From contig NZ_BMCP01000002.1 of assembly GCF_014635245.1 (NCBI RefSeq), forward strand, positions 744,001 through 808,000: 64,000 nucleotides of DNA, in the 5' to 3' direction. Every line of letters starts with the position of its first letter. Positions within the stretch are counted from its first letter, which is position 1. The notes under the pieces were generated by a model. That model did not search any database. It was not told the origin of the DNA and saw only the letters and a list, made by a program, of their open reading frames with translations. The translations under genes were made by a program, and so were the position numbers. Below are positions 20,889 to 34,433 of this stretch, one piece after another. Source of the stretch: Agaricicola taiwanensis (GTDB taxonomy: Bacteria > Pseudomonadota > Alphaproteobacteria > Rhizobiales > Methylopilaceae).

Positions 20889-22332
20889 AGTGGCTGAAGA
20901 TCTGCAGGGCTGCTTCGCCCCGGCTCGCAGCTCGGGCTTCGGCAAAACAGCGACCAATGCCGATCAGGACCGGCGCCGCGCCCAGGGCTGCTCCTTGTTC
21001 GGCAAGTGCTCCAAGCGTCATCGCGCGGATGGCTTCTTCCGGCCGTGACACAGCTTCCGCCACGACAACGGGAGTCCCTCCCGAAAGGCCCTCGGCTATC
21101 AGCCGGGAAGCCAGCAGCCTGGAAGTACCCGCGCCCATATAAACCACCAGCGTTGTGGCGGGATCGGCCAGTCCCTTCCAGTCTAGGTTCTTGGGCAGGC
21201 TGCCGTCGCGGGCGTGCCCCGTGACGAAGCGGACCGATTGCGCGTGATCCCGATGGGTCAGAGACACGCCAAGGCGGGCGGCAAGCCCGAAAGCCGCACT
21301 GATCCCAGGAACCACATCAACAGGGATGCCGGCCGCGGACAGCTCAGCGATCTCTTCGCCGGCGCGACCGAAGATCATCGGATCACCCGACTTCAGCCGC
21401 ACCACATGCTTGCCCGCCAGCGCCGCGCGCACCATCAGCGCGTTGATGTCGTCCTGGCGGCAGGAGAGTTTGCCGCCGCGCTTGCCCACCATCATGCGCT
21501 TGGCCTCCCGCCGCGCCAGTTCCAGTACCTCGGTTGACACAAGGTCGTCGAAAAGGATGACGTCCGCGGCCTGAAGCGCCCGCATGGCTTTGATGGTGAG
21601 ATATTCCGCATCGCCGGGGCCGGCGCCGACAATGGTGACGTGCCCCGGCGCCTTCGCGCTGGCCTGTGCCGCCATGATCAGGGCTTCGGCCGAGGCTTCA
21701 TCAGCGACGGTGCGGGAAAAAGCGAGATCGGAGAAGCGTTCCCAGAATAGACGACGCTCGGCGCCCGGCTTCAAGAGATCAAGCGTTCGCTGCCGGATGC
21801 GCAGGGCAAGGGCGGCCCAGGTAGAGAGCGTTTGCGGCAGCATGGCCTCGATGCGGCGGCGCAGGTTCTGGCCGATGATCGGAGCTGCCCCCGCCGTTGA
21901 AATACCGATCACGACCGGCGAGCGGTTCACGATGGAGCCGAACTGGAAGTCGCAGAAATCCGGCTTGTCGATCACGTTCCAACGCGCACCCACGGTACAT
22001 GCTGCTGCGGCAAATGCGGCGGCCTCCGCCTCATCTTCGGCGTCGCAGATGGCGATCGCAGCGCCGTCAATGTCGGCTTCGGTCCAGTTCCGGCGAATGA
22101 TGCGTAGGGTGCCGGCCTCTTCCAGCTTGGCCATGACTTGGCCGGGCCCGGCGGCAAAGACCTCGACCCTGGCGCCGGCAGCGGCGGTGAGCTCCGCCTT
22201 CCAGGCCGCGGCATCGCTGCCGCCGGCAACCAATACCCTGCGGCCTTCCAGCGTGAGAAAAACAGGAAGGACAGCCAGAGGGCCCATGCGGGCGGGTGCG
22301 GCCTCAGCCGGTTTTCTGAAGGTGGTGTCCAT
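20881..22332 (-). CDS. cysG: Siroheme synthase (fused dehydrogenase/ferrochelatase and uroporphyrinogen methyltransferase)
   Basis: Makes siroheme, the cofactor of the nitrite reductase NirB encoded upstream. The N-terminal precorrin-2 dehydrogenase/ferrochelatase half begins LAVLPVFLTLEGRRVLVAGG and contains FCDFQFGSIVNRSPVVIGIST. The C-terminal methyltransferase half has VTIVGAGPGDAEYLTIKAMRA and RLKSGDPMIFGRAGEE. The length is about 483 residues. The start is taken as ATG at 22332 behind an AAGG, overlapping nasA by 29 bases; a GTG at 22335 and an ATG at 22287 are alternatives. The C-terminus overlaps mobA by eight bases. Confidence 0.94.
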   Translation of the reverse strand: MDTTFRKPAEAAPARMGPLAVLPVFLTLEGRRVLVAGGSDAAAWKAELTAAAGARVEVFAAGPGQVMAKLEEAGTLRIIRRNWTEADIDGAAIAICDAEDEAEAAAFAAAACTVGARWNVIDKPDFCDFQFGSIVNRSPVVIGISTAGAAPIIGQNLRRRIEAMLPQTLSTWAALALRIRQRTLDLLKPGAERRLFWERFSDLAFSRTVADEASAEALIMAAQASAKAPGHVTIVGAGPGDAEYLTIKAMRALQAADVILFDDLVSTEVLELARREAKRMMVGKRGGKLSCRQDDINALMVRAALAGKHVVRLKSGDPMIFGRAGEEIAELSAAGIPVDVVPGISAAFGLAARLGVSLTHRDHAQSVRFVTGHARDGSLPKNLDWKGLADPATTLVVYMGAGTSRLLASRLIAEGLSGGTPVVVAEAVSRPEEAIRAMTLGALAEQGAALGAAPVLIGIGRCFAEARAASRGEAALQIFSHCA

Positions 22333-25051
22333 CACAGAGCCTTTTGATTTCCGGACGGCAGGAGCCGCAGTTGGTGCCCGCCTTCAAACACACGCCGATA
22401 GCCTCCACCGTGACCGCGGCGCCCGAACTGATCGCCGCGATGATGGTGTTCACGCCCACGTCGAAGCAGGAACAGACCGTCGCGCCTTGATCGGGCGCAT
22501 GGGCACCGGCGCGGCCCGCCAGGAGACTCATCCGGCCGTGCCCATCAAAGGAGGCATCATCCAGCCGATCGGCGATCCAGTTCCGAGACACCGCAACAGG
22601 CTCGGGCGCGGCGAAGAATGCCCCCGCCAGCCGGCCGTCATGGAAAGCGGCGAAGCGGAAGGAGCGGCCGGCAGCATCCTGATAAGACACGACCTCCGCG
22701 TCCTTCGGCAGGCCCAGCAGCGTCGTGACATAGCCTGTCCAATCATCGGGCGTGTCGCTACCGGCGCATTCCAGGCGCCAGCCGCCCTTGGCCCGGGCGG
22801 CAGCCGCATAGGGAAGATCTGACAGGACCGGCTTTCCGCGCGAGGCCGCGAAGCCGTACCAGGCAACGGCAAAAGGGGTTACTGCGACATCCGTCAGTTT
22901 CAGGCCGGGTTGGCCGGACACAGGGTCGACTGCGGGAGAAACAGCCGCGTCGATCCGGGCCGCGGGGGCATATTCCGTTGTCCAGTGCATGGGGACGAAC
23001 ACCGATCCGGGCTGCTGGCGATCGGTGACGAGGGCCCGCGCGACTGCCGCTCCATGGGCGCTGGTGATCTGAACCAGTCCTGCGGGTGTCACGCCGAGCT
23101 GCGACGCGTCGGAGGGATGAAGTTCGGCAAAGGGTTCGGCGATGTGACTCGCCAGTCGCGGGGTTTTGCCCGTCCGCGTCATGGTGTGCCATTGATCTCG
23201 AATGCGGCCGGTGTTGAGGCGAAGGCCGCTGTAATCCTGTTTGGCTTGAACCGGCGTCGGAATGAAACGAGCGCGCGTATCGGACGTGTAGAAGCGTCCT
23301 GTCGCGAAGAACCGGCCATCGTGGGTGGGCGGATTTCCGCCCTTGGGCGCTGGCCATTGAAAAGGCTCCAGGGCCTCGTAATCGGTGTTGGTGACGTTCT
23401 CGAAGGCCCCGATGTCGAAATCGCGTGTGCCGTCATTCTCGAAGGCCGACAGCGCGGCATGCTCCCGGAAAATGTCGGCAGGCCCTTCATAAGCGAAGGC
23501 TTTTTTGAAGCCGAGACGCTGGGCCACCTGCGTCATGATCCACCAGTCGGACCTGGCATCTCCGGGCAGCGGCAGGAAGGGGCGCTGCCTGGAGATGCGG
23601 CGTTCGGAGTTGGTCACGGTGCCGTCCTTCTCGCCCCAAGCAGCGGCGGGCAGAAGCACATGGGCGAGGGCGGCCGTATCGGCTCCCGAAACCACATCGG
23701 AGACCACCACGAAAGGGCAGCGCGCAAGAGCATCCCGGACGCGGTTGGCGGCGGGCATGCTGACCACGGGATTGGTGCCCATGATCCAGATGGCCTTGAC
23801 GCGTCCGTCGCCTACGGCTTCGAAAAGGTCGACCGCCTTGAGACCTGGCCGTGACGCGAGCCGATCGGTGCCCCAAAACCGGGCCACGCGATCCCGGGCG
23901 ATCTCGTCGAAATCCATGTGAGCGGCGAGCTGATTGGCGAGCCCGCCGACCTCGCGGCCGCCCATAGCATTGGGCTGGCCCGTCACCGAAAAGGGCCCCA
24001 TGCCGGGTCTTCCGATCCGCCCCGTGAAGAGGTGGCAGTTGATCATGGCATTGACCTTGTCGGTGCCGGATACCGATTGATTGACCCCTTGCGAGTAGAC
24101 GGTGACGACCTTCTCCGTCGCCGCGAAGAGCTGGAAGAAGGTGGCGATGTCCGCGGTCGAAAGGCCGGTGCCGGCGGCTGTTATTTCGATGTCGGCTGCC
24201 GAGGCCGCCAGAGCGTCATCCAACCCTGAGGTATGGGCGCTGACAAAACCCGCATCGGCCTTGCCTTCCCGCGCGAGATGGCTGAGCAGACCGTTGAAGA
24301 GGGCGACGTCTCCGTTGGGCGCGATGGGGAGGAAAAGATCGGCGGCCTCCGCGGTGGCCGTGCGGCGGGGGTCGACGACGACGATCTTCATGTCCGGCCG
24401 GGCGGCCTTCGCCGCCAGGAGGCGCTGGAACAGGACCGGATGGCACCAGGCAAGGTTGGAACCCACCAGCACCGCGAGGTCGGTGAGCTCAAGATCCTCA
24501 TAGGTGCCCGGCACCGTATCGGCGCCGAACGCGCGGCGGTGCCCCGCTACCGAGGAGGCCATGCAGAGGCGCGAGTTGGTGTCGATATTGCCGGAGCCGA
24601 TGAAGCCCTTCATCAGCTTGTTGGCGACGTAATAATCCTCTGTAAGGAGCTGGCCGGACACGTAAAAAGCAACTGCGTCGGGTCCATGTTCGGCGATGGT
24701 TGATCGGAATTTCGCCGCGACCAGATCGAGAGCTTCGTCCCAATCCGCGGTACGGCCGTCGATCCGAGGGTGCAAGACGCGGTCATCGAGGGAGAGCGTT
24801 TCAGCAAGGGCCGAGCCCTTTGAGCACAGCCTTCCGAAATTCGAGGGATGGGAGGCATCGCCCTTGACGGACGCGAGACCTGTGCCATCAACCGAGGCGG
24901 TCACGCCGCAACCAACGCCGCAATAGGGGCAGGTGGTCCGCACTGCGTCAGGAACGGACCTTTCCGGCGTCCCGGTCGCGTCCACCAGGGCAAGGTCGAG
25001 TCCTGCGGGCGCAGAAAGCAAACCTTCCCCGTGAGACGGACGGTCGTCCAT
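22304..25051 (-). CDS. nasA: Assimilatory nitrate reductase, molybdopterin catalytic subunit
   Basis: Cytoplasmic enzyme that reduces nitrate to nitrite with a molybdopterin guanine dinucleotide and Fe-S clusters. The N-terminal 4Fe-4S motif is Cys41, Cys44, Cys48 and Cys76 (TTCPYCGVGCGV then GRLCSKGSA). The molybdopterin oxidoreductase domain follows, with a dinucleotide-binding domain in the region LRLNTGRIRDQWHTMTRTG. The last 60 residues form a BFD-type 2Fe-2S domain (VCSCFDVGV then CLKAGTNCGSCRPEI), typical of NasA/NasC enzymes that take electrons from a flavoprotein or ferredoxin. No separate NasB reductase gene is nearby. Starts two bases after nirD. Confidence 0.95.
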   Translation of the reverse strand: MDDRPSHGEGLLSAPAGLDLALVDATGTPERSVPDAVRTTCPYCGVGCGVTASVDGTGLASVKGDASHPSNFGRLCSKGSALAETLSLDDRVLHPRIDGRTADWDEALDLVAAKFRSTIAEHGPDAVAFYVSGQLLTEDYYVANKLMKGFIGSGNIDTNSRLCMASSVAGHRRAFGADTVPGTYEDLELTDLAVLVGSNLAWCHPVLFQRLLAAKAARPDMKIVVVDPRRTATAEAADLFLPIAPNGDVALFNGLLSHLAREGKADAGFVSAHTSGLDDALAASAADIEITAAGTGLSTADIATFFQLFAATEKVVTVYSQGVNQSVSGTDKVNAMINCHLFTGRIGRPGMGPFSVTGQPNAMGGREVGGLANQLAAHMDFDEIARDRVARFWGTDRLASRPGLKAVDLFEAVGDGRVKAIWIMGTNPVVSMPAANRVRDALARCPFVVVSDVVSGADTAALAHVLLPAAAWGEKDGTVTNSERRISRQRPFLPLPGDARSDWWIMTQVAQRLGFKKAFAYEGPADIFREHAALSAFENDGTRDFDIGAFENVTNTDYEALEPFQWPAPKGGNPPTHDGRFFATGRFYTSDTRARFIPTPVQAKQDYSGLRLNTGRIRDQWHTMTRTGKTPRLASHIAEPFAELHPSDASQLGVTPAGLVQITSAHGAAVARALVTDRQQPGSVFVPMHWTTEYAPAARIDAAVSPAVDPVSGQPGLKLTDVAVTPFAVAWYGFAASRGKPVLSDLPYAAAARAKGGWRLECAGSDTPDDWTGYVTTLLGLPKDAEVVSYQDAAGRSFRFAAFHDGRLAGAFFAAPEPVAVSRNWIADRLDDASFDGHGRMSLLAGRAGAHAPDQGATVCSCFDVGVNTIIAAISSGAAVTVEAIGVCLKAGTNCGSCRPEIKRLCDGHHLQKTG

Positions 25052-25053
25052 GA

Positions 25054-25407
25054 TCAGGCTGCCACGTTTGCCGCTATACTGACGGGAAGATCGAGCGAGA
25101 GCCGCCCATCGGCATCCACATAGGTGGCGATGGTGCGAACGCAGCCCTCATCCGCGCCCTGCGCAAGGCCGGTCTTCAGGTCGATCACCCAGTTGTGCAG
25201 GGGGCAGGTGACAAAGCCGCCATGGACGATGCCCTCAGACAGCGGGCCGCCGCGATGCGGACAGCGGTTGTCGATGGCATAGATTTCGTCGGCGACAGTG
25301 CGGAAAATCGCGATCTCCATGGGACCGGCACGGACCATGCGCGCGCCTTCACGCGGGATGTCGTCAATGCGGCCGATGGTGGTACGGATGGTGGCAGGAG
25401 CGTTCAT
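25054..25407 (-). CDS. nirD: Nitrite reductase (NADH) small subunit
   Basis: Rieske-fold partner of NirB in assimilatory nitrite reduction. The 117-residue protein carries a full 2Fe-2S Rieske motif, CPHRGGP (Cys-x-His) and CPLHNW (Cys-x-x-His), unlike some NirD proteins that have lost these ligands. The start overlaps the nirB stop by four bases and the stop is two bases before nasA, so the three reductase genes are translationally coupled. Confidence 0.94.
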   Translation of the reverse strand: MNAPATIRTTIGRIDDIPREGARMVRAGPMEIAIFRTVADEIYAIDNRCPHRGGPLSEGIVHGGFVTCPLHNWVIDLKTGLAQGADEGCVRTIATYVDADGRLSLDLPVSIAANVAA

Positions 25408-27857
25408 TCGGCGGCCTCCATGGCGGGGATCGTGACAAGCGGGGCGAACTCGTGGGCATCGTGGCCGGCAACGCGCTCCGCCCAGGGGTCGGTCTGGAAC
25501 AGCTTTTGGGAATGGAGGAAACGCTCCACCAATGCGGTGCGGCCGGTTTCATCCTCGGCGATGCGACGGCGGATTTCGTCCATGCCGACGCGCTTGGCCC
25601 ATTTGTAGATGCGCTCGAGGTAGAAGCCCTGCTCGCGATAGAGCTGGAGCAGAGCGATGCCGTGATCGATGGCTTCCTGCTCGGTCTTGACCCGGCACAG
25701 GACCTCGGTACCCTTGATGTCGAGCCCCGCCGCACCGGCAAAATGCAGCTCATAGCCCGCATCGGTGCAGATCACGCCGAAGTCCTTGCAGGTTGCCTCG
25801 GCGCAGTTCCGTGGGCAGCCCGACACCGCCATTTTTACCTTGGCGGGGGTCCATGAACCCCACATGGCCTTCTCCAGCTTGACACCGAGGCCGGTGGAAT
25901 CCTGCGTGCCAAAGCGGCACCAATCAGTGCCGACGCAGGTCTTCACGGTGCGCACGCCCTTGGCATAGGCGTGGCCGGACACCATGCCTGCGTCGTTGAG
26001 ATCCGCCCAGACGGCGGGCAGGTCCTCCTTGCGCACGCCGAGAAGATCGATGCGCTGGCCGCCGGTGACCTTCACCGTGGGAATGGCAAATTTATCGGCA
26101 ACATCGGCAATGGCGCGCAGTTCCGCCGCCGTGGTGACGCCGCCCCACATGCGTGGCACGACCGAGTAGGTGCCGTCCTTCTGGATGTTGGCGTGAACGC
26201 GTTCATTGACGAAACGCGAGCGGTAATCGTCGGCTGCCTCATCGGGCCAGGTCGCGATCATATAATAGTTGAGGGCCGGGCGGCATCTTGCGCAGCCGCA
26301 TGAACTTTTCCATTCAAGCTCCTGCATCAACGCGGGAATTGACTTCAGCCTCCTCACCACGATCAGGCGCCGCACATCGGCGTGGGACAGATCGGTGCAG
26401 GTGCACATGGGCGTCACCGCCTTGGCTTCGAAGGCATCGCCCAAGGTCAGGGCCAGCACCTGTTCGACAAGGCCGGTGCAGGAGCCGCAGGACGCGGAAG
26501 CCTTGGTGTGGGCGCGTACACCATCAAGATCGGTGACGCCCTTGGCGCCGATGGCCTCGACGATGGCACCTTTGCAAACGCCGTTGCAGCCGCAGATCTC
26601 AGCACTATCCGGCAAGGCTGCAACGGCCGCCGTAGGGTCCAGGGGGGCGCCCCCGGCGAAAGAACGGCCAAAGATCAGCGTGTCGCGATCGGCCGCGACA
26701 TCCGCTTCCTGTCGAAGGAGATCGAAGAAATATCCTCCGTCGGAGGTTTCTCCGTAGAGAACCGCGCCGAGGATCTTGTTGTCCTTCAGCACAATCCGCT
26801 TGTAGACACCGCGCGCCGCGTCGCGAAAAACGATCTCCTCGCGGTCCTTGGCTTCGGCGAAATCGCCCGCCGAGAAGAGGTCGACACCTGTGACCTTCAG
26901 CTTGGTGGAGGTGACGGAGCCGGTATATTCCGCCTCGGCATTGCTCAAGGTCGCGGCAACCACCTTGGCCATCTCGTAAAGCGGCGCCACGAGACCGTAG
27001 CACTGGCCGCGGTGCTCAACGCATTCACCCACAGCAAGAATATCAGGGTCGCTGGTCAGCATCCGGTCGTCGACGACGACGCCACGGTTCACATCGAGGC
27101 CTGCTGACTTGGCAAGCGCCGCGTGAGGGCGGATGCCCACGGCCATGACGACGAGATCGCAGTCGATCCGGGTGCCATCCTCCAGCTCCAGGGCCTGGAC
27201 ATGGCCGTCGCCATGAATGGCCTTGGTGTTGGCCCGCGTCACCACATCGATGCCGCGGCGACGCATCTCCTGCTCCAGAAGATAGCCGGCGGCAGGATCG
27301 AGCTGGCGCTCCATGAGCGTGGCGGCAAGATGGATCACCGTCACATCCATGCCCCGCATCTTGAGGCCGGCTGCCGCTTCAAGCCCCAGCAGTCCGCCGC
27401 CGATGACAACCGCGCGGCCGCCTTTCTCGGCGGCGGCGAGCATGCGGTCCACGTCGTCGAGATCGCGATAAGCGATGACGCCGGGAAGGTCCTTGCCCGG
27501 CACCGGGATCATGATGGGAGACGAGCCAGTCGCGATCAGCAGCTTGTCGTAAGGGGCGACGACGCCATCGGCCGTTTCCACGATCTTGCGGGTGCGGTCG
27601 ATGGTCGTGATGGTTTGGCCGCGAACGAGCGTCACCTCGTGCTGGTCATACCAGGCTTCCGGGTGGGTGACGATTTCGTCGAAGGTCTTCTCGCCGGAGA
27701 GCACCGGCGAAAGCAGGATCCGATTGTAATTGACGCGCGGCTCGGCGCTGAAGACGGTGACCTGATAGCGGCCCGGAGCGCTTTCGAAGAGATGCTCCAG
27801 GGCGCGGCCCGAGGCCATGCCGTTGCCGATGACGACCAGTTTTTCAGTCATGTTCAT
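25404..27857 (-). CDS. nirB: Nitrite reductase (NADH) large subunit
   Basis: Six-electron reduction of nitrite to ammonium in the cytoplasm. Domains in order: FAD/NAD(P)H-binding reductase (VVIGNGMASGRALEHL near the N-terminus, then VVIGGGLLGLEAAAGL), two BFD-type 2Fe-2S segments (CGCNGVCKGAI and CASCGSC-like ASCGSCTGLVEQ at about residues 420-500), and the siroheme/4Fe-4S domain with TCVGTDWCRFGTQDS and SGCPRNCAEATCKD, whose four cysteines hold the cluster bridged to siroheme. The length of 817 is typical. Siroheme comes from cysG in the same operon. Confidence 0.96.
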   Translation of the reverse strand: MNMTEKLVVIGNGMASGRALEHLFESAPGRYQVTVFSAEPRVNYNRILLSPVLSGEKTFDEIVTHPEAWYDQHEVTLVRGQTITTIDRTRKIVETADGVVAPYDKLLIATGSSPIMIPVPGKDLPGVIAYRDLDDVDRMLAAAEKGGRAVVIGGGLLGLEAAAGLKMRGMDVTVIHLAATLMERQLDPAAGYLLEQEMRRRGIDVVTRANTKAIHGDGHVQALELEDGTRIDCDLVVMAVGIRPHAALAKSAGLDVNRGVVVDDRMLTSDPDILAVGECVEHRGQCYGLVAPLYEMAKVVAATLSNAEAEYTGSVTSTKLKVTGVDLFSAGDFAEAKDREEIVFRDAARGVYKRIVLKDNKILGAVLYGETSDGGYFFDLLRQEADVAADRDTLIFGRSFAGGAPLDPTAAVAALPDSAEICGCNGVCKGAIVEAIGAKGVTDLDGVRAHTKASASCGSCTGLVEQVLALTLGDAFEAKAVTPMCTCTDLSHADVRRLIVVRRLKSIPALMQELEWKSSCGCARCRPALNYYMIATWPDEAADDYRSRFVNERVHANIQKDGTYSVVPRMWGGVTTAAELRAIADVADKFAIPTVKVTGGQRIDLLGVRKEDLPAVWADLNDAGMVSGHAYAKGVRTVKTCVGTDWCRFGTQDSTGLGVKLEKAMWGSWTPAKVKMAVSGCPRNCAEATCKDFGVICTDAGYELHFAGAAGLDIKGTEVLCRVKTEQEAIDHGIALLQLYREQGFYLERIYKWAKRVGMDEIRRRIAEDETGRTALVERFLHSQKLFQTDPWAERVAGHDAHEFAPLVTIPAMEAAE

Positions 27858-27876
27858 CCTCCCCGGACTTGAGCCG

Positions 27877-28674
27877 TCAGGCAGCTTCCACGAAGCGATT
27901 GCGCTCGTAGAGGAACTTCAGAACCGCCGCGCGGCAGGCGAGATAGGTGGCGTCGTTGACCAGTTCGAGCCGGCGGCGGGGACGCTCAAGCGGAACCTCG
28001 AGCACTTCGCCGATGCGGGCGGAGGGGCCGTTGGTCATCATCACGATGCGATCGGACAAAAGGACCGCCTCATCGACATCATGGGTGATCATCATCACCG
28101 TGTTCTCAAGCGTCGCCTGGATCTGCATGACCTGATCCTGCAGATGGGCACGGGTGAGGGCGTCCAAGGCTCCAAAGGGTTCGTCGAGAAGCAGCACCTT
28201 GGGTTCCATGGCGAGCGCCCGCGCGATGCCGACGCGCTGCTTCATGCCGCCGGAGATTTCCGATGGGCGCTTGTCCCTGGCGTGGCCCATATGGACCAGC
28301 TCCAGGTTGAACATGGTCCAGTCGCGGCGCTCGGCAGCGCTTTTCCGGCGCCTGAACACCTTATCGACACCGAGGGCGACATTCTCGTAGACGGTGAGCC
28401 AGGGCAGCAGCGAGTGGTTCTGGAAGACCACCGCGCGATCCGGCCCCGGTTCATCGACCAGTTGTCCTTCCAGCAGCACCGCGCCCGACGTCGCCGGAGT
28501 GAGGCCGGCCACGATGTTCAGCAGCGTAGACTTGCCGCAGCCGGAGTGCCCGATGATCGAAATGAATTCGCCCTTGTCGACCGTCAGGGAGATATCCTTC
28601 AGCACCTCCGTGGTCGCGGGGCCGCGCGAGAAGCTCTTGTCGATGCCTTCGATGGAGAGATAGGCCTTGGCCAT
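27877..28674 (-). CDS. nrtD: Nitrate ABC transporter ATP-binding protein
   Basis: ATPase subunit of the nitrate/nitrite importer. Walker A is GHSGCGKSTLLN, the ABC signature is SEISGGMKQRVGIARAL, and Walker B is VLLLDEPFGALD, all in normal order in a 265-residue protein. The start MAKAYLSIEGIDKSF has GAGGAGG six bases upstream; a longer frame to 28812 would overlap nrtB and is rejected. The short C-terminal tail after EVPLERPRRR resembles the taurine/nitrate transporter ATPases. The symbol follows the cyanobacterial naming and could equally be nasD or ntrD. Confidence 0.92.
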   Translation of the reverse strand: MAKAYLSIEGIDKSFSRGPATTEVLKDISLTVDKGEFISIIGHSGCGKSTLLNIVAGLTPATSGAVLLEGQLVDEPGPDRAVVFQNHSLLPWLTVYENVALGVDKVFRRRKSAAERRDWTMFNLELVHMGHARDKRPSEISGGMKQRVGIARALAMEPKVLLLDEPFGALDALTRAHLQDQVMQIQATLENTVMMITHDVDEAVLLSDRIVMMTNGPSARIGEVLEVPLERPRRRLELVNDATYLACRAAVLKFLYERNRFVEAA

Positions 28675-28685
28675 GGTCGTCCTCC

Positions 28686-29591
28686 TCACGCTGCCGCAAC
28701 GCCGCGGGTGATGCGGCTGCCGATGAAGGCGACGATCCGATCCAGCACGAAGCCGACGAGGCCGACGTAGACGAGGGCCAGGATGATGTCGCTGATGAGG
28801 GACGAGTTCCACGCGTCCCAGATGAAGAAGCCGATGCCGACACCGCCGATCAGCATCTCGGCCGCCACGATGGCGAGCCAGGACAGGCCGATGCCAATGC
28901 GCAGGCCGGTGAAGATGTATGGCGCGGCCGCCGGCAGCATGATCTTTCCGAAGTATTCGAGGCCGTTGAGCTTCACAACCTGCGCCACGTTTCGGTAGTC
29001 GGACGGAATATTGCGGATGCCGACGGCGGTATTGATGATGATGGGCCAGATGGCGGTGATGAAGATCACGAAAATGGCGGACGGCTCTCCATCACGGAAC
29101 GCGGCGAGCGAGAGCGGCAGCCAGGCAAGCGGCGGCACCGTCCGCAGCACCTGGAACACCGGATCGAGGCCTCGCATGGCCCAGGTCGACTGGCCGACGA
29201 GCACCCCCAGGGCCACGCCGGCGACCACTGCCAGCGCGTAACCGAGAGCGACGCGTTTCAGGCTCGCGAGAAGCTGCCAGGCCATGCCCTTGTCGTTCCC
29301 GCCATTGTCGTAGAAGGGATCGACGATGAGCTGCCAAGTATCGGTTATGACCTGTGAGGGCGGCGGCAGGGCGGAGGAGGGGCTGGAGCAGAGCGCCTCC
29401 CACAGGCCGATCAGGAGCACCAGGGTGATGAGTGGCGGCAGGACGTTCGCCATGGCGGCGTTGGCGTGCGCGCTAAGCTTCGGCAGACGGGCGGCACCCG
29501 GCTTCGGCAAGGCGATGACCTCTGCGGCGCGGCGTACCGGCGGGGTCGGCAGAGGCGTCACATCGGCTCCTATCGGTGCGGTCTGGCTCAT
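28686..29591 (-). CDS. nrtB: Nitrate ABC transporter permease
   Basis: Membrane subunit of the importer. About six hydrophobic helices are visible from residue 48 (ANVLPPLITLVLLIGLWEAL) to the C-terminus, with the binding-protein-dependent transport motif near VVKLNGLEYFGKIMLPAAAP, which contacts the ATPase. The N-terminal 45 residues are soluble and proline- and alanine-rich. CGGAGA lies just before the ATG. The nrtA stop is 57 bases upstream and the ATPase gene starts 11 bases downstream. Confidence 0.93.
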   Translation of the reverse strand: MSQTAPIGADVTPLPTPPVRRAAEVIALPKPGAARLPKLSAHANAAMANVLPPLITLVLLIGLWEALCSSPSSALPPPSQVITDTWQLIVDPFYDNGGNDKGMAWQLLASLKRVALGYALAVVAGVALGVLVGQSTWAMRGLDPVFQVLRTVPPLAWLPLSLAAFRDGEPSAIFVIFITAIWPIIINTAVGIRNIPSDYRNVAQVVKLNGLEYFGKIMLPAAAPYIFTGLRIGIGLSWLAIVAAEMLIGGVGIGFFIWDAWNSSLISDIILALVYVGLVGFVLDRIVAFIGSRITRGVAAA

Positions 29592-29648: not shown

Positions 29649-30944
29649 TTAGGCGAGGCGGGAGATGCCCAGGCTCTCGAGATAGGCGGTCGGATTTTCG
29701 GGATCGAAGACCTTCCCATCGAAGAAGGTTTCCTTGCCACGTGAGGTGGAGCTGGGAATGTTCTCCACACCCAGTTCCTTCGCGGCCTCGCGCCACAGAT
29801 CCTCGCGGTTGACCTGCGCGATCAACGCTTTGGTATCGGTGTTTTCCTTCAGATAGCCCCAGCGGATGTCCTCGGTCAGGAACCAGAGGTCATGGCTCTG
29901 ATAGGGATAGGAGGCGTTATTGGCCCAGTACTTCATCGCGAAGGGGCTGTTCTCGACCACCTTGCCGGTGCCGTAATCGAAGTTGCCCTTCATGCGCTCG
30001 ACCACGTCCTTGTAGGGAGCGTTGATCCAGTTGCGCTTGGAGCTGATTTCCGCCAGCTCTTCCCTGTTCTCGTGTTTGTCGCACCACATCTGGGCTTCCA
30101 TCACTGCCATCAGCAGTGCCTTTGCGGCCCTCGGGTTCTTGTCGACATAGTCGGCGCGCAGGGCGAAAGCCTTCTCCGGATGTCCGTTCCAGAGTTCGCC
30201 CGTCGTCAGGGCCGTATAGCCGATCTCCTGGTTCTTCAGCTGCTCATTCCAGGGCTCGCAGACGCAGAAGCAGTCCATGGTGCCAACCTTCATGTTGGCG
30301 ACCATCTGCGCCGGAGGCACCACGATGGTCTGAATGTCCTTGTCGGGATCGATGCCACCGGCCGCCAGCCAGTAGCGGATCCACAGATCGTGGGTGCCGC
30401 CGGGGAAGGTCATGGCCGCCTTCACTTGCCTGCCGGACGCCTTCTTCGCCTCCAGAGCCGCCTTGAAGGGAGACGCATCGGTGCCGAGCTTGAGGTCGAT
30501 GTATTCCTGGCCGACCGAAATGCACTGGCCGGCAAGATTGAGCCGGGAGAGGATCATCATGGGCGTCGGCTGATTGTTCTGCGTCATCGCCCCTGACGTG
30601 ATGAGGTAGGGCATCGGCGTGAGGATATGGCCGCCATCAATCCCATTGCCGGCGGAACCCAACACGATGTTGTCGCGCGTCGTGCCCCAGGACGACTGCT
30701 TGACCACCTCGACATCAGGCATGCCGTATTTTTCGAAGATGCCCTTTTCCTTGGCGACGAACAGCGGACCGGCATCGGTCAGGGCGATGAAACCGAGCCG
30801 CGCCTTGGTGGTCTCCGGACCGGCTCCCTGAGCGAAGGCGCCACTGGGAAAACCGAGCCTGATGGCCGAAGCCACGGCGGCGGTGCCGGCGGCCGATTGC
30901 AGCAACCTGCGGCGGGTCATGCCCTTGGTCGTCGATGTCGCCAC
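29649..30944 (-). CDS. nrtA: Periplasmic nitrate-binding protein, Tat-exported
   Basis: Solute-binding subunit of the nitrate importer. The twin-arginine signal MTRRRLLQSAAG with a hydrophobic stretch ending near GAFAQGAG directs export of the folded protein. The mature part begins KARLGFIALTDAGPLFVAKE, and DCFCVCEPWNEQ is a nitrate-binding-protein segment. The annotated GTG at 30944 has GAGGGG six bases upstream; an internal ATG (30920) lies right at the twin-arginine motif. It is paralogous to the cytoplasmic sensor NasS encoded upstream. It is the first structural gene of the operon, preceded by a long leader with an antitermination structure. Confidence 0.93.
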   Translation of the reverse strand: MATSTTKGMTRRRLLQSAAGTAAVASAIRLGFPSGAFAQGAGPETTKARLGFIALTDAGPLFVAKEKGIFEKYGMPDVEVVKQSSWGTTRDNIVLGSAGNGIDGGHILTPMPYLITSGAMTQNNQPTPMMILSRLNLAGQCISVGQEYIDLKLGTDASPFKAALEAKKASGRQVKAAMTFPGGTHDLWIRYWLAAGGIDPDKDIQTIVVPPAQMVANMKVGTMDCFCVCEPWNEQLKNQEIGYTALTTGELWNGHPEKAFALRADYVDKNPRAAKALLMAVMEAQMWCDKHENREELAEISSKRNWINAPYKDVVERMKGNFDYGTGKVVENSPFAMKYWANNASYPYQSHDLWFLTEDIRWGYLKENTDTKALIAQVNREDLWREAAKELGVENIPSSTSRGKETFFDGKVFDPENPTAYLESLGISRLA

Positions 30945-30999: not shown

Positions 31000-31068
31000 A
31001 AAAAACGCCGCCGAACCAAGAACACGGGCCAGATAGCAAGGCCTCGCTGCTTCAGGTTCGAGCGACGT
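31000..31068 (-). terminator. Leader terminator of the nitrate operon
   Basis: Read on the minus strand, ACGTCGCTCGAACC (31068-31055) pairs with GGTTCGGCGGCGT (31017-31005) over 13 base pairs including two G-U pairs and one bulged T, and six T follow at 31005-31000. The 37-base apical part contains smaller hairpins. Its 5' arm covers the 3' arm and part of the loop of the second hexaloop hairpin (31063-31076), so the two structures exclude each other. The nrtA start is 56 bases downstream. Confidence 0.72.
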
Positions 31069-31125
31069 CGTTGTCGATCGTGCGGGATTACTAATCCCGC
31101 TATGGTGCCGATCGCCGTTGATCGG
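31063..31125 (-). promoter_or_regulatory. ANTAR-type antiterminator RNA: two hexaloop hairpins in the nrtA leader
   Basis: Hairpin P1 is CCGATC-AACGGC-GATCGG (31125-31108) and P2 is CGAC-AACGAC-GTCG (31076-31063), both read on the minus strand. Each has a six-base loop with A at position 1 and G at position 4, the published hallmark of RNAs bound by ANTAR proteins such as NasR and NasT. The linker holds a third hairpin, GCGGGATT-AGT-AATCCCGC (31100-31082). P2 overlaps the terminator arm. NasT, an ANTAR protein, is encoded just upstream. Loop identity and overlap are seen; the binding is inferred. Confidence 0.75.
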
Positions 31126-31141
31126 ATCATTACTAAGATAG

Positions 31142-31212
31142 GACGAGCGAAGGTCTCGTCACATCTGCACTTTAGGTTGTTTCCAGTATGAAGCCGCTGC
31201 TTCTTTCCGCAA
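31142..31212 (-). promoter_or_regulatory. Candidate promoter and 5' hairpin of the nitrate operon leader
   Basis: On the minus strand TTGCGG (31212-31207) and CATACT (31190-31185) are 16 bases apart and could be a -35/-10 pair. A 6-bp hairpin GACGAG/CTCGTC with a 7-base loop (31160-31142) follows inside the predicted transcript, before P1. No sigma-54 GG-N10-GC element was found in 31126-31269. A TGATG-N10-CATCA inverted repeat lies upstream at about 31233-31252. Confidence 0.35.
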
Positions 31213-31269
31213 GACGAAAGTTTGTGCACTGCATGATGTAATTTTGTGCATCAGCGTCAGGTCGGATTG

Positions 31270-32535
31270 TCAGAAGGGCGTATTGCTCGTTCCAGGCTCG
31301 GTTCTCAGCTTAAAGTCCCCGATGTAGGCGTCGAGACGCGCGGGATCAAAGATGCGGCCGTCGATGAACCCATCGTTCTGGAGGCCCTCCACCTTGCTGT
31401 CGGCAGGGGGAAACGCGATTGCCGCTCCGGCGAGCGCCGCACGATAAATATCTGGCCGGTAGGCCGATGCAGCCACCGCCGCCTGTTCGGCGCGATGCTC
31501 GACCTGTCCCCATCGCACCATCTGGCTGTAGGTCCAGAGGGCCTGACTGAGCCAGGGAAAATTCGCGTGTTGGCCGTGGAAGGTGAAGTAGCCCGGAATT
31601 GAGCGATGTCGACCATCCGGATCGACGGTCAAATCGCCCGCCAGCAGGCGTTCCAGCATACGGGGAGAGGCCCCGACATAGTTTTCACCGCTCAACATGA
31701 CCGCAAGATCCGCATGGTTCTCCGGCGTGTCACACCAGCGTGCCGCCGCATCCAGTGCCACGATCAATCGCATCAAGCTCTCAGGATTAGCCTCGGCCCA
31801 GTCCGGCCGCACGCCCAGCACTTTTTCCGGCGCCGACGGCCATATGTCGGGCTTGGTTGCGACGATGCGGCCGACCCCGCTCTCGACCGCCATGATGTTC
31901 CAGGGGGCGTTGACGCAAAAGCCATCGATGGCACCCATGGCCAGCGCATCAGCTGTAAGGGGCGGCGGCACGACTGTCATGATGACATCGCGATCCGGAT
32001 GAATGCCGGCCGACGCCATCCAGAAGCGGAATTCGTAGTTGTGCGAGGAGAATGGGTAGGTCATGGCGAAGACTGGCGGCGGCTTGCCTTCAGCCCTGCG
32101 CCGGTCGATGACATCCTTTAAAGCGCGAGCATTGGTGAGTGCGTCCTCATCACCTTTGAGGCCGCACATTGCTTGCATGTCCCTGTAGAGCGCGATTGAA
32201 AGCGTAATGGCATTGCCGCCTCGGCCGAGGGCGAAGGGCGCGAAGCTGGGATAGGGATTGGATCCGATGCCCAGCACGGAAGCCACCGCCATTGGGCTGA
32301 GCATATGCGCCACATCGAACTGGCGGAAGGCGAGGCGGTCGCGGATGTTGGACCAGGAGACGTCCCGGATGAGTTGCAGCTCGAGTCCTTCACGAGCCGC
32401 GAAGCCAACTTCGACCGCGGCCACCAGAACCGCAATATCGATCAGTGGAATGAAACCAGCACGCACCAGACGGGCTTCATTACCGCGCACCTGCGCGGGG
32501 CGGGCCAATCCCGATGTTGTGGCAGGAGCAGTCAT
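31270..32535 (-). CDS. nasS: Nitrate/nitrite sensor NasS (cytoplasmic NrtA-like protein)
   Basis: Homologue of the nitrate-binding protein NrtA without a signal peptide: the N-terminus MTAPATTSGLARPAQ is polar and the binding fold begins at LVRAGFIPLIDIAVLVAA. In Paracoccus, Azotobacter and Bradyrhizobium, NasS binds NasT and releases it when nitrate or nitrite is present. Ligand-site-like segments such as DGFCVNAPWNIM align with the NrtA DCFCVCEPWNEQ. The length is 421 residues. GAGG seven bases before the ATG supports the start, and nasT ends 12 bases upstream, so the pair is co-expressed. Confidence 0.9.
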   Translation of the reverse strand: MTAPATTSGLARPAQVRGNEARLVRAGFIPLIDIAVLVAAVEVGFAAREGLELQLIRDVSWSNIRDRLAFRQFDVAHMLSPMAVASVLGIGSNPYPSFAPFALGRGGNAITLSIALYRDMQAMCGLKGDEDALTNARALKDVIDRRRAEGKPPPVFAMTYPFSSHNYEFRFWMASAGIHPDRDVIMTVVPPPLTADALAMGAIDGFCVNAPWNIMAVESGVGRIVATKPDIWPSAPEKVLGVRPDWAEANPESLMRLIVALDAAARWCDTPENHADLAVMLSGENYVGASPRMLERLLAGDLTVDPDGRHRSIPGYFTFHGQHANFPWLSQALWTYSQMVRWGQVEHRAEQAAVAASAYRPDIYRAALAGAAIAFPPADSKVEGLQNDGFIDGRIFDPARLDAYIGDFKLRTEPGTSNTPF

Positions 32536-32547
32536 CGCGGAACCTCT

Positions 32548-33138
32548 CTATTGCCCCAGCAAGGCGGCAGCGGTGACCACGCTGCGTGCGATATCAGCCA
32601 TTCGGCGCTTCTCGTTCATGGCGGTCTGGCGCATCAGGGCGTAGGCCTCTTCCTCGCCCAGTCCGCGCGATTTCATGAGGATGCCCTTGGCCCGTTCGAT
32701 GATCTTGCGCTCCTCGAGCTGGCTCTTGGCCGTGTCCAACTCGCGCTGCAGGCGCTCAAAAGCGTTGAAGCGACTGACCGCCATATCGACGATGGGCTTC
32801 ACGCGCTCCATGCGCAGGCCATCGACGATATAGGCGGAGACGCCGGCATCCACCGCGGCCTGGATCATGTCGCCGTCGGACTGATCTACGAACATGGCCA
32901 CGGGGCGCGAGACAACACGCGACACCTGAAACATCTGTTCCAGCACGTCGCGGCTGGGATTCTGAAGATCGATGATGATGACGTCAGGATCGATCTCGGT
33001 CAGGCGGCGCAGCAGGCTCGCCGTGCTGGCGATCACTTCGATTTCCGTGTGTCCGGCCGCACGAAGCCCCTCGACCAGAATCGCCGCACGCAGGGCGTTC
33101 TCATCGATGACAGCAACGCGAAGAAAAGGAGGAGCCAT
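32548..33138 (-). CDS. nasT: ANTAR-domain antiterminator NasT
   Basis: RNA-binding positive regulator of nitrate assimilation. The N-terminal receiver-like domain begins LRVAVIDENALRAAIL and includes DPDVIIIDLQNPSRD. After a helical linker (LQRELDTAKSQLEERKIIE) the C-terminal ANTAR domain reads RAKGILMKSRGLGEEEAYA, with the conserved RAK-hydrophobic-LM pattern. The 196-residue product from ATG 33138 has the usual size; a longer frame to 33261 would overlap moeA and is disfavoured. It is expected to bind the two-hairpin leader before nrtA unless held by NasS. Confidence 0.9.
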   Translation of the reverse strand: MAPPFLRVAVIDENALRAAILVEGLRAAGHTEIEVIASTASLLRRLTEIDPDVIIIDLQNPSRDVLEQMFQVSRVVSRPVAMFVDQSDGDMIQAAVDAGVSAYIVDGLRMERVKPIVDMAVSRFNAFERLQRELDTAKSQLEERKIIERAKGILMKSRGLGEEEAYALMRQTAMNEKRRMADIARSVVTAAALLGQ

Positions 33139-33227: not shown

Positions 33228-34433
33228 CTAGTCGGACAATCCTAGCCGCAGAAAGCGGCACGGCGCGCCCGCGCGGATCTCACCCTCGTGGGCCGGCCGG
33301 ACCAACAGGGCGTCCGCCAGGGCGAGAGATCGCGTCATGGACGAATCCTGCACATCAAATGGGCGGATGGCGATGCCCTCCGGCCCCTCGGACAAGGTTG
33401 CGCGCATGTAGTCCTCGCGAGGCCCGTTTGCGGGAAGATCGCTCGCCAGCGTCGCCACTTCCAGAGATGGCAGCAGATCGGTTCGGCCCTGGAGTTTGCG
33501 AAGCATCGGCTTGAGGAAGAGAAGCGCGCAGATCTGCGCGGACACCGGATTGCCAGGCAGGCCGAGGAGGGGGGTCTCGCCGAACCAGCCGAAGATCATC
33601 GGCTTTCCCGGGCGCATGGCGATCTTCCAGAAATCGAGCCGCATGCCCTCCTGTTCGAACACCTGGCGGATCAAGTCGTGATCGCCGACGGATGCGCCTC
33701 CAAGCGTGATGAAGACATCCGGCCGCATGTCCCGCACGCGCGCAATGGCCGCCTTCAGATCCGCGACTGTGTCACGGGCGATGCCGAGATCATGGGCGAT
33801 GCCGCCCTCTGCCTCGACCATGACCGCCAGTGCGGTGCTGCTCGTGGCGATGATCTGATCCTTGCCCGGCATTTCCCCGGGCAGCACCAGTTCGTCTCCG
33901 GTCGCGAGGATGGCGACAGTCGGACGGCGGCGTAAAGGCAGGCTGGCATGACCGAGACCGGCCGCGAGCCCAAGATCCCTTGCGGTCAGCCTCCGGCCGG
34001 CATCGAAGACGATATCGCCTTCCTGAAAGTCGAGGCCGCGGTGCCGAATATTCTGGCGGGCCTTTACCTCGGCCAGCGGTGTCAGGAAGTCGCCATCGCG
34101 CTCGGCATTTTCCTGGATCAGCACCGCGTCGGCCCCATTAGGCAGCGGTGCGCCTGTGAAGATGCGCACGGCCGTGCCGGCGGCGAGCGTGCCGTCAAAG
34201 GCGCAGCCGGCCTGGGACGTTCCGATGATTGTCAGCTGTCGGCCAGGCTCCGCATCGGCGGCCCGCAGCGCATAACCATCCATGGCGGAGACGTCGAAGG
34301 GCGGCTGCGTGCGCAGGGCCTCCAATGGTGCCGCGAGGATCCGGCCATGGCTCTGGGAAAGCGGAACCCGTTCGGCGCTCAGCGGCGCCACGCTTGTGAG
34401 GATGCGCTCCCGGGCCTCATCGACCGATAGCAT
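33228..34433 (-). CDS. moeA: Molybdopterin molybdenumtransferase
   Basis: Inserts molybdate into adenylated molybdopterin. The 401-residue protein has the MoeA layout: N-terminal domains with AMDGYALRAAD and VRIFTGAPLPNGADAV, then the MogA-like domain with VAILATGDELV and ITLGGASVGDHD, and GLPGNPVSAQICALLFLKP toward the C-terminus. The start overlaps the moaC stop by one base (TGATG). It makes cofactor for NasA and other molybdoenzymes, and it now sits beside the nitrate block. Confidence 0.95.
   Translation of the reverse strand: MLSVDEARERILTSVAPLSAERVPLSQSHGRILAAPLEALRTQPPFDVSAMDGYALRAADAEPGRQLTIIGTSQAGCAFDGTLAAGTAVRIFTGAPLPNGADAVLIQENAERDGDFLTPLAEVKARQNIRHRGLDFQEGDIVFDAGRRLTARDLGLAAGLGHASLPLRRRPTVAILATGDELVLPGEMPGKDQIIATSSTALAVMVEAEGGIAHDLGIARDTVADLKAAIARVRDMRPDVFITLGGASVGDHDLIRQVFEQEGMRLDFWKIAMRPGKPMIFGWFGETPLLGLPGNPVSAQICALLFLKPMLRKLQGRTDLLPSLEVATLASDLPANGPREDYMRATLSEGPEGIAIRPFDVQDSSMTRSLALADALLVRPAHEGEIRAGAPCRFLRLGLSD

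Follow-up and report, generated by a model that had tools for sequence, protein, structure and literature searches.

A predicted NasT-controlled antitermination leader with a third, conserved hairpin upstream of the nitrate operon of Agaricicola taiwanensis

Genes flanking the leader

The window analyzed here is a 64,000-nucleotide stretch of the A. taiwanensis genome (contig NZ_BMCP01000002.1, positions 744,001 to 808,000 of the forward strand), and positions below are counted from its first letter. The leader lies on the minus strand in the gap between nasS (31270-32535) and nrtA (29649-30944). All genes described are on the same strand. The nasT gene (32548-33132) encodes an ANTAR domain together with a pseudo-receiver domain (PF03861, E = 1e-19; PF00072, E = 5e-8); its start was inferred at MAPPFLRV, inside a longer GTG open reading frame ending at 33261. 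It is followed by nasS, encoding an NrtA-like nitrate/nitrite sensor (PF13379, E = 6.6e-68) that is probably cytoplasmic, with no signal peptide evident by eye. A NasT with a receiver-like domain and an ANTAR domain, encoded beside an NrtA-like NasS, is the arrangement of a NasS-NasT system.

The first gene of the operon, nrtA, encodes the binding protein of a nitrate ABC transporter (PF13379, E = 2e-104), and NrtA was judged by eye to carry a twin-arginine-like leader. The downstream operon (22304-29591) consists of nrtB (28686-29591), a gene for an NrtC/D-type ATPase (27877-28812), nirB (25404-27857), nirD (25054-25407) and a molybdopterin-type nitrate reductase gene (22304-25051) that matched the TIGR01591 and NasC families, both below cut-off. 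NCBIfam matches above cut-off in the operon were TIGR01183, TIGR01184, TIGR02374 and TIGR02378.

Only one ANTAR domain was found in the whole genome, that of nasT, about 1.4 kb upstream of the leader. The best solved relatives of NasT are Rv1626 (1s8n), EutV (6wsh) and NasR (4akk). With numbering matched to the EutV structure paper (PMC8934654), the RNA-contact residues Arg142, Lys143, Tyr164 and Met172 of EutV are kept in NasT, and an Arg stands in place of Lys147. Instead of the receiver Lys, which forms part of VKP in EutV and Rv1626, NasT has Asp; this is consistent with control of NasT by NasS and not by phosphorylation.

A search for the sigma-54 pattern allowing up to three mismatches gave no match in the leader. 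Before the first hairpin, positions 31126-31269 hold no sigma-54 site, unlike many related nrtA leaders, in which TGGCAC-N5-TTG[CA] occurs. They do contain, at about 31250-31220, a GTGCA-type element that looks like an NtrC site. Scans of the leader region for sigma-70 promoters and simple terminators returned nothing, the terminator scan having a loop limit of 8 that excludes the long terminator described below.

Hairpins and terminator of the leader

The first hairpin, P1 (31125-31108), reads CCGATC-AACGGC-GATCGG and was found in both sequence and fold; it has six base pairs and a hexaloop with A at position 1 and G at position 4 (A1/G4), with a folding energy of -7.7 kcal/mol. It is followed by a linker hairpin of 19 nt and eight base pairs (31100-31082, GCGGGATT-AGT-AATCCCGC, -10.9 kcal/mol). 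P2 (31076-31063, CGAC-AACGAC-GTCG) has four base pairs, again an A1/G4 hexaloop, and an energy of -3.1 kcal/mol. An intrinsic terminator hairpin occupies 31069-31006 (-34.1 kcal/mol), folding as GACGUCGC.CGAACC...GGUUCGGCGGCG and then UUUUUUAUUUU, and a U tract read from the sequence follows at 31005-30995 (TTTTTTATTTT). Positions 31069-31063 of the terminator 5' arm are common to P2, whose 3' arm (31066-31063) falls within that arm, so that P2 and the terminator base exclude each other. The leader has the two stem-loops of at least 3 bp with A1/G4 hexaloops, the second overlapping and excluding a terminator, by which ANTAR targets have been defined (PMC3369931). An earlier note, made from the sequence alone, had described these two hexaloop hairpins, the P2-terminator overlap, NasT and NasS encoded just upstream and the nitrate operon behind the leader; the positions of P1 and P2 proved exact, those of the terminator good to about one base, and the protein family matches bear out both the regulators and the nitrate transport and reduction genes.

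A possible further hairpin 5' of P1 was seen in sequence and fold (31160-31142, GACGAG-ACCTTCG-CTCGTC); its loop of 7 nt is not an ANTAR hexaloop. In sister genera, too, a hairpin stands 5' of P1, and its loop is often a hexaloop whose fourth base is G.

The 151-nt leader folded better than 200 of 200 dinucleotide shuffles (z -3.3). Over positions 31125-31000 the terminated fold had an energy of -56.1 kcal/mol versus -46.7 kcal/mol for the fold in which P2 was forced, a gap of 9.4 kcal/mol, and forcing P2 shortened the terminator. When the P2 region was taken out, a shortened terminator hairpin persisted (-22.0 kcal/mol), set back from the U tract. With P2 held, a 7-bp hairpin and the upper part of the terminator stay, and GGCG-type sequence separates them from the U tract.

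Folding and covariation of the linker hairpin

P1 and P2 are separated by a 31-nt linker, in which 7 nt before the linker hairpin and 5 nt after it are unpaired, 12 nt altogether. This linker folded with z -4.8, and none of 300 shuffles reached as low an energy. In an alignment of four sequences, which was made by MAFFT and not fitted to structure, six of the seven linker pairs had two-sided changes, and the covariation score was reached by 0 of 500 shuffles; shifting the pairing partners in the same four sequences abolished the signal. A larger alignment of 21 distinct rows (set A3) gave two-sided changes in all seven linker pairs and in five of six P1 pairs, a result that leans towards structure because the alignment was fitted to a covariance model, with four false positives included. 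The P2 pairs in these rows were mostly invariant, with little covariation. Leaders from other genomes of the order that had been chosen solely by the P2 motif contained a linker hairpin too.

Linker length was near-constant in three families: 31-32 nt, apart from one of 30 nt, in the window leader and the leaders of families f24 and f41, most of which have 6-7 nt before the linker helix and 4-5 nt after it. The leaders of family f11 showed another geometry, with linkers of 27-37 nt, several of which folded no better than shuffles (p 0.07-0.21). A UA dinucleotide, often AUA, stands at the same place in the loop of several linker hairpins (GGCATAA, GCGATAG, GACATAG; TTAGTAA at 31093-31087 in the window), and could be a contact site or chance.

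At 31 nt, the linker exceeds both the 5-12 nt of eut leaders and the 2-25 nt allowed in a later survey of ANTAR targets (PMC8164766), but 19 nt of it are taken up by the hairpin. Linkers of this kind fit the published ranges only if the hairpin is taken to be a folded spacer. The founding definition of ANTAR targets called the linker merely "variable" (PMC3369931).

Recurrence in related genomes

A strict search for two hexaloops with an overlapping terminator was applied to 143 loci upstream of nrtA in related genomes, some of which contributed twice. Of these, 45 have the architecture; mononucleotide shuffles of the same loci never produced it. A covariance model covering all three helices (R1) was searched against 397 genomes of the order and matched 21 sites in 20 of them; 17 sites, in 17 genomes, had an overlapping terminator and an adjacent nitrate-type gene. 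Four marginal matches (L199, L201, L202 and L203), which lacked both a terminator and nitrate genes, were rejected as false positives. Outside the order, the class-level matches were L252 and L253, both weak.

In the A. taiwanensis genome the window leader scored 79 bits with R1 and the next best site 21.7 bits, in a search by R1 and one pattern that covered leaders of the linker-hairpin type. The genome has one ANTAR protein and one strong target.

Two observations were made alongside these searches. In one genome (G074, site L200) the gene behind a linker-hairpin leader is NrtA/NasS-like but more distant (about 32-35% identity), a hint at a different target gene. The nasTS-nrt cluster on contig NZ_JTIY01000019.1 (L045), which is labelled Streptomyces sp. 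AcH 505, falls with those of Afipia and Rhodopseudomonas, and is probably contamination.

Leader type and the NasS clade

Other genera of the family to which A. taiwanensis belongs have linkers of 2-4 nt and a P2 of the type CAGC-ANNGCC-GCTG. The window NasS is 55-60% identical to NasS proteins encoded beside linker-hairpin leaders and at most 47% identical to others. In a tree of NasS proteins, a branch with an SH-aLRT value of 98 sets off all 13 linker-hairpin rows, including the window, from the rest. Linker-hairpin leaders go with one NasS clade. The NasT tree gave no equally clean split (two changes, weak support). The NasS tree was made by a quick method and contains some long branches, and "short" in both trees means not of the linker-hairpin type, the leaders having been checked individually for part of the rows. 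The nrtA and nrtB genes of the window resemble own-family or Aquibium homologues. From these comparisons, nasS and the leader may have moved together.

Relation to narK RNA

Compared with all Rfam families, the leader scored below the gathering cut-off throughout. Weak matches with E above 0.05, such as BcKCsr2 and CRISPR-DR23, were set aside as chance. The match of positions 31160-31062 to narK RNA (RF03032) reached 19.2 bits against a cut-off of 43.2, so that by score the leader is not a narK RNA member, even though it is made of the same hexaloops; the alignment was pursued because both hexaloop hairpins fell inside it.

A search of 398 genomes of the phylum found RF03032 in 21. In its 5' part the RNA has what reads as a sigma-54 promoter (GGC...TTGCT); then come a P1 with the loop AACGGC, a P2 such as CGAC-AAAGAC-GTCG and a terminator that overlaps P2. 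The Rfam model leaves P2 unpaired. Thirty RF03032 sites were examined in whole genomes (L204-L233, genomes G417-G739): 22 passed the strict test for dual hexaloops, each of them also having an overlapping terminator, and no shuffles did; the remaining sites were off by one base or had a mismatch. An ANTAR protein was encoded in all 20 narK-RNA genomes tested, its gene often a few hundred bases from the RNA, and in 7 of 20 comparison genomes, a figure that is indicative only, as the comparison set was chosen by number, is less complete and spans a wider range of taxa. Downstream of RF03032 lie, among others, genes for NarK-type transporters and nitrate reductase, nirB and nrtA-like genes.

These features suggest that narK RNA is likely an ANTAR antitermination leader, composed of a sigma-54 promoter, a dual hexaloop and a terminator. 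Such a link is not without precedent, since hairpins recognizable by NasT had already been noted before narK in Bradyrhizobium (PMC6759348). No paper naming RF03032 as an ANTAR target was found, in a search that did not extend to the 2017 paper describing narK RNA. The link would give a catalogued RNA family a function and would extend predicted NasT-type regulation to its nitrate genes.

Proposed mechanism and alternative readings

Given the anatomy, conservation, compensatory changes and gene context observed here, the element is very probably a three-hairpin leader through which NasT controls antitermination in the nrt-nir-nas operon. When nitrate is absent, NasS would hold NasT, and the transcript would fold into the 31069-31006 terminator. 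When nitrate or nitrite is present, NasS would release NasT, which would grip the A1/G4 hexaloops of P1 and P2. P2 would then withhold 31066-31063 from the terminator stem, and the leftover hairpin, set back from the U tract, would permit read-through. As the P2-forced state is the less stable one and P2 is weak alone, NasT would have to act co-transcriptionally. We infer nitrate sensing, NasT binding and read-through from studies of NasT, NasR and EutV. The linker hairpin most likely serves as a rigid spacer that would restore a usable distance between hexaloops lying far apart, a role proposed from the present analysis.

That the leader is a plain terminator or attenuator after nasTS, or under some other control, with hexaloops present by coincidence, appears extremely improbable. 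The terminator is indeed very stable, and the lack of any Rfam match at the gathering cut-off fits this reading, but coincidence does not explain why dual A1/G4 hexaloops and a terminator recur upstream of nrtA and never in the shuffles, and it is opposed by the compensatory changes, the adjacency of nasT and nasS and the NasT leaders established in related systems. The earlier note had taken the element for an ANTAR antitermination leader and had named compensatory changes in related leaders as a check. Such changes are present in P1 and in the linker helix, and together with the hexaloops, the overlap of P2 with the terminator, the adjacent regulators, the single ANTAR protein and the downstream nitrate genes they uphold that reading. 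It was incomplete rather than wrong, having overlooked the linker hairpin, which makes the leader a variant architecture.

The linker hairpin itself could be a functionless, lineage-specific chance insertion, as sister genera of the same family manage with linkers of 2-4 nt. We regard this as improbable: several families keep the same pairing register with differing sequence, all seven pairs have two-sided changes, and leaders selected by the P2 motif alone likewise contained a linker hairpin. It is possible, though doubtful, that the hairpin is a separate functional element, either a transcription pause site giving NasT time or a hairpin whose loop a second factor binds. The conserved and covarying helix, the UA in the 7-nt loop register of several leaders and the association with one NasS clade would suit such an element, and a spacer is perhaps needless if EutV dimers touch hexaloops singly, as has been proposed; the loop sequence, however, is not kept in f11 or in L191, and the near-constant spacing in the window, f24 and f41 leaders suits geometry better than loop recognition.

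We lean modestly towards treating the linker-hairpin leaders as a distinct class of NasT targets, in which the conserved third helix would be a working part of the antiterminator, through hexaloop distance or an extra contact, inherited with one NasS clade, and towards counting narK RNA among ANTAR antitermination leaders of this kind. The NasS-NasT mechanism is already known; new here are the three-hairpin variant, its association with one clade of NasS and the probable assignment of narK RNA.

There is no settled view of how the two hexaloops serve an ANTAR dimer. Induction was strongly reduced when the eutP linker was set to 3 or 14 nt, and these EutV-system mutants suggest that distance matters (PMC3369931), whereas the EutV-RNA structure led to the proposal that the dimer contacts each hexaloop singly, so that the loops would be gripped separately (PMC8934654). 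A natural 31-nt linker with a covarying helix, beside relatives with 2-4 nt, makes the question of hexaloop distance directly testable within one protein family.

Comparison with known systems

In Paracoccus denitrificans, NasT binds nasA leader RNA and NasS frees NasT on nitrate or nitrite (PMC3795266), and mutation of hairpin HI in the leader abolished expression (PMC5424462). Regulation by NasS-NasT is also reported for Bradyrhizobium nosR and Pseudomonas aeruginosa nirBD (as cited in PMC6759348). As at the window locus, these systems have nasT and nasS next to the operon, with hairpins and a terminator between nasS and the operon and with nitrate genes downstream. The window leader differs from known NasS-NasT nas leaders in having three hairpins; none of the literature examined on these leaders was found to describe a helix lying between the hexaloops.

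The EutV targets of Enterococcus share the two A1/G4 hexaloop hairpins and a P2 that excludes the terminator (PMC3369931, PMC8934654). Their short linkers contrast with that of the window, which holds a helix, and EutV has a phospho-receiver, whereas NasT appears to have a pseudo-receiver.

Among nrtA leaders, those with short linkers (Methylopila, Hansschlegelia, Methylobacterium and others) resemble the window leader in position, dual hexaloops and terminator. They differ in linkers of mostly 2-8 nt, in the CAGC-ANNGCC-GCTG form of P2, in a sigma-54 promoter and in a NasS of another clade. With narK RNA the window leader shares the P1 loop AACGGC, a P2 akin to CGAC-AAAGAC-GTCG, the overlapping terminator and the location upstream of nitrate genes; narK RNA differs from it in including a sigma-54 promoter and in linkers that are mostly short.
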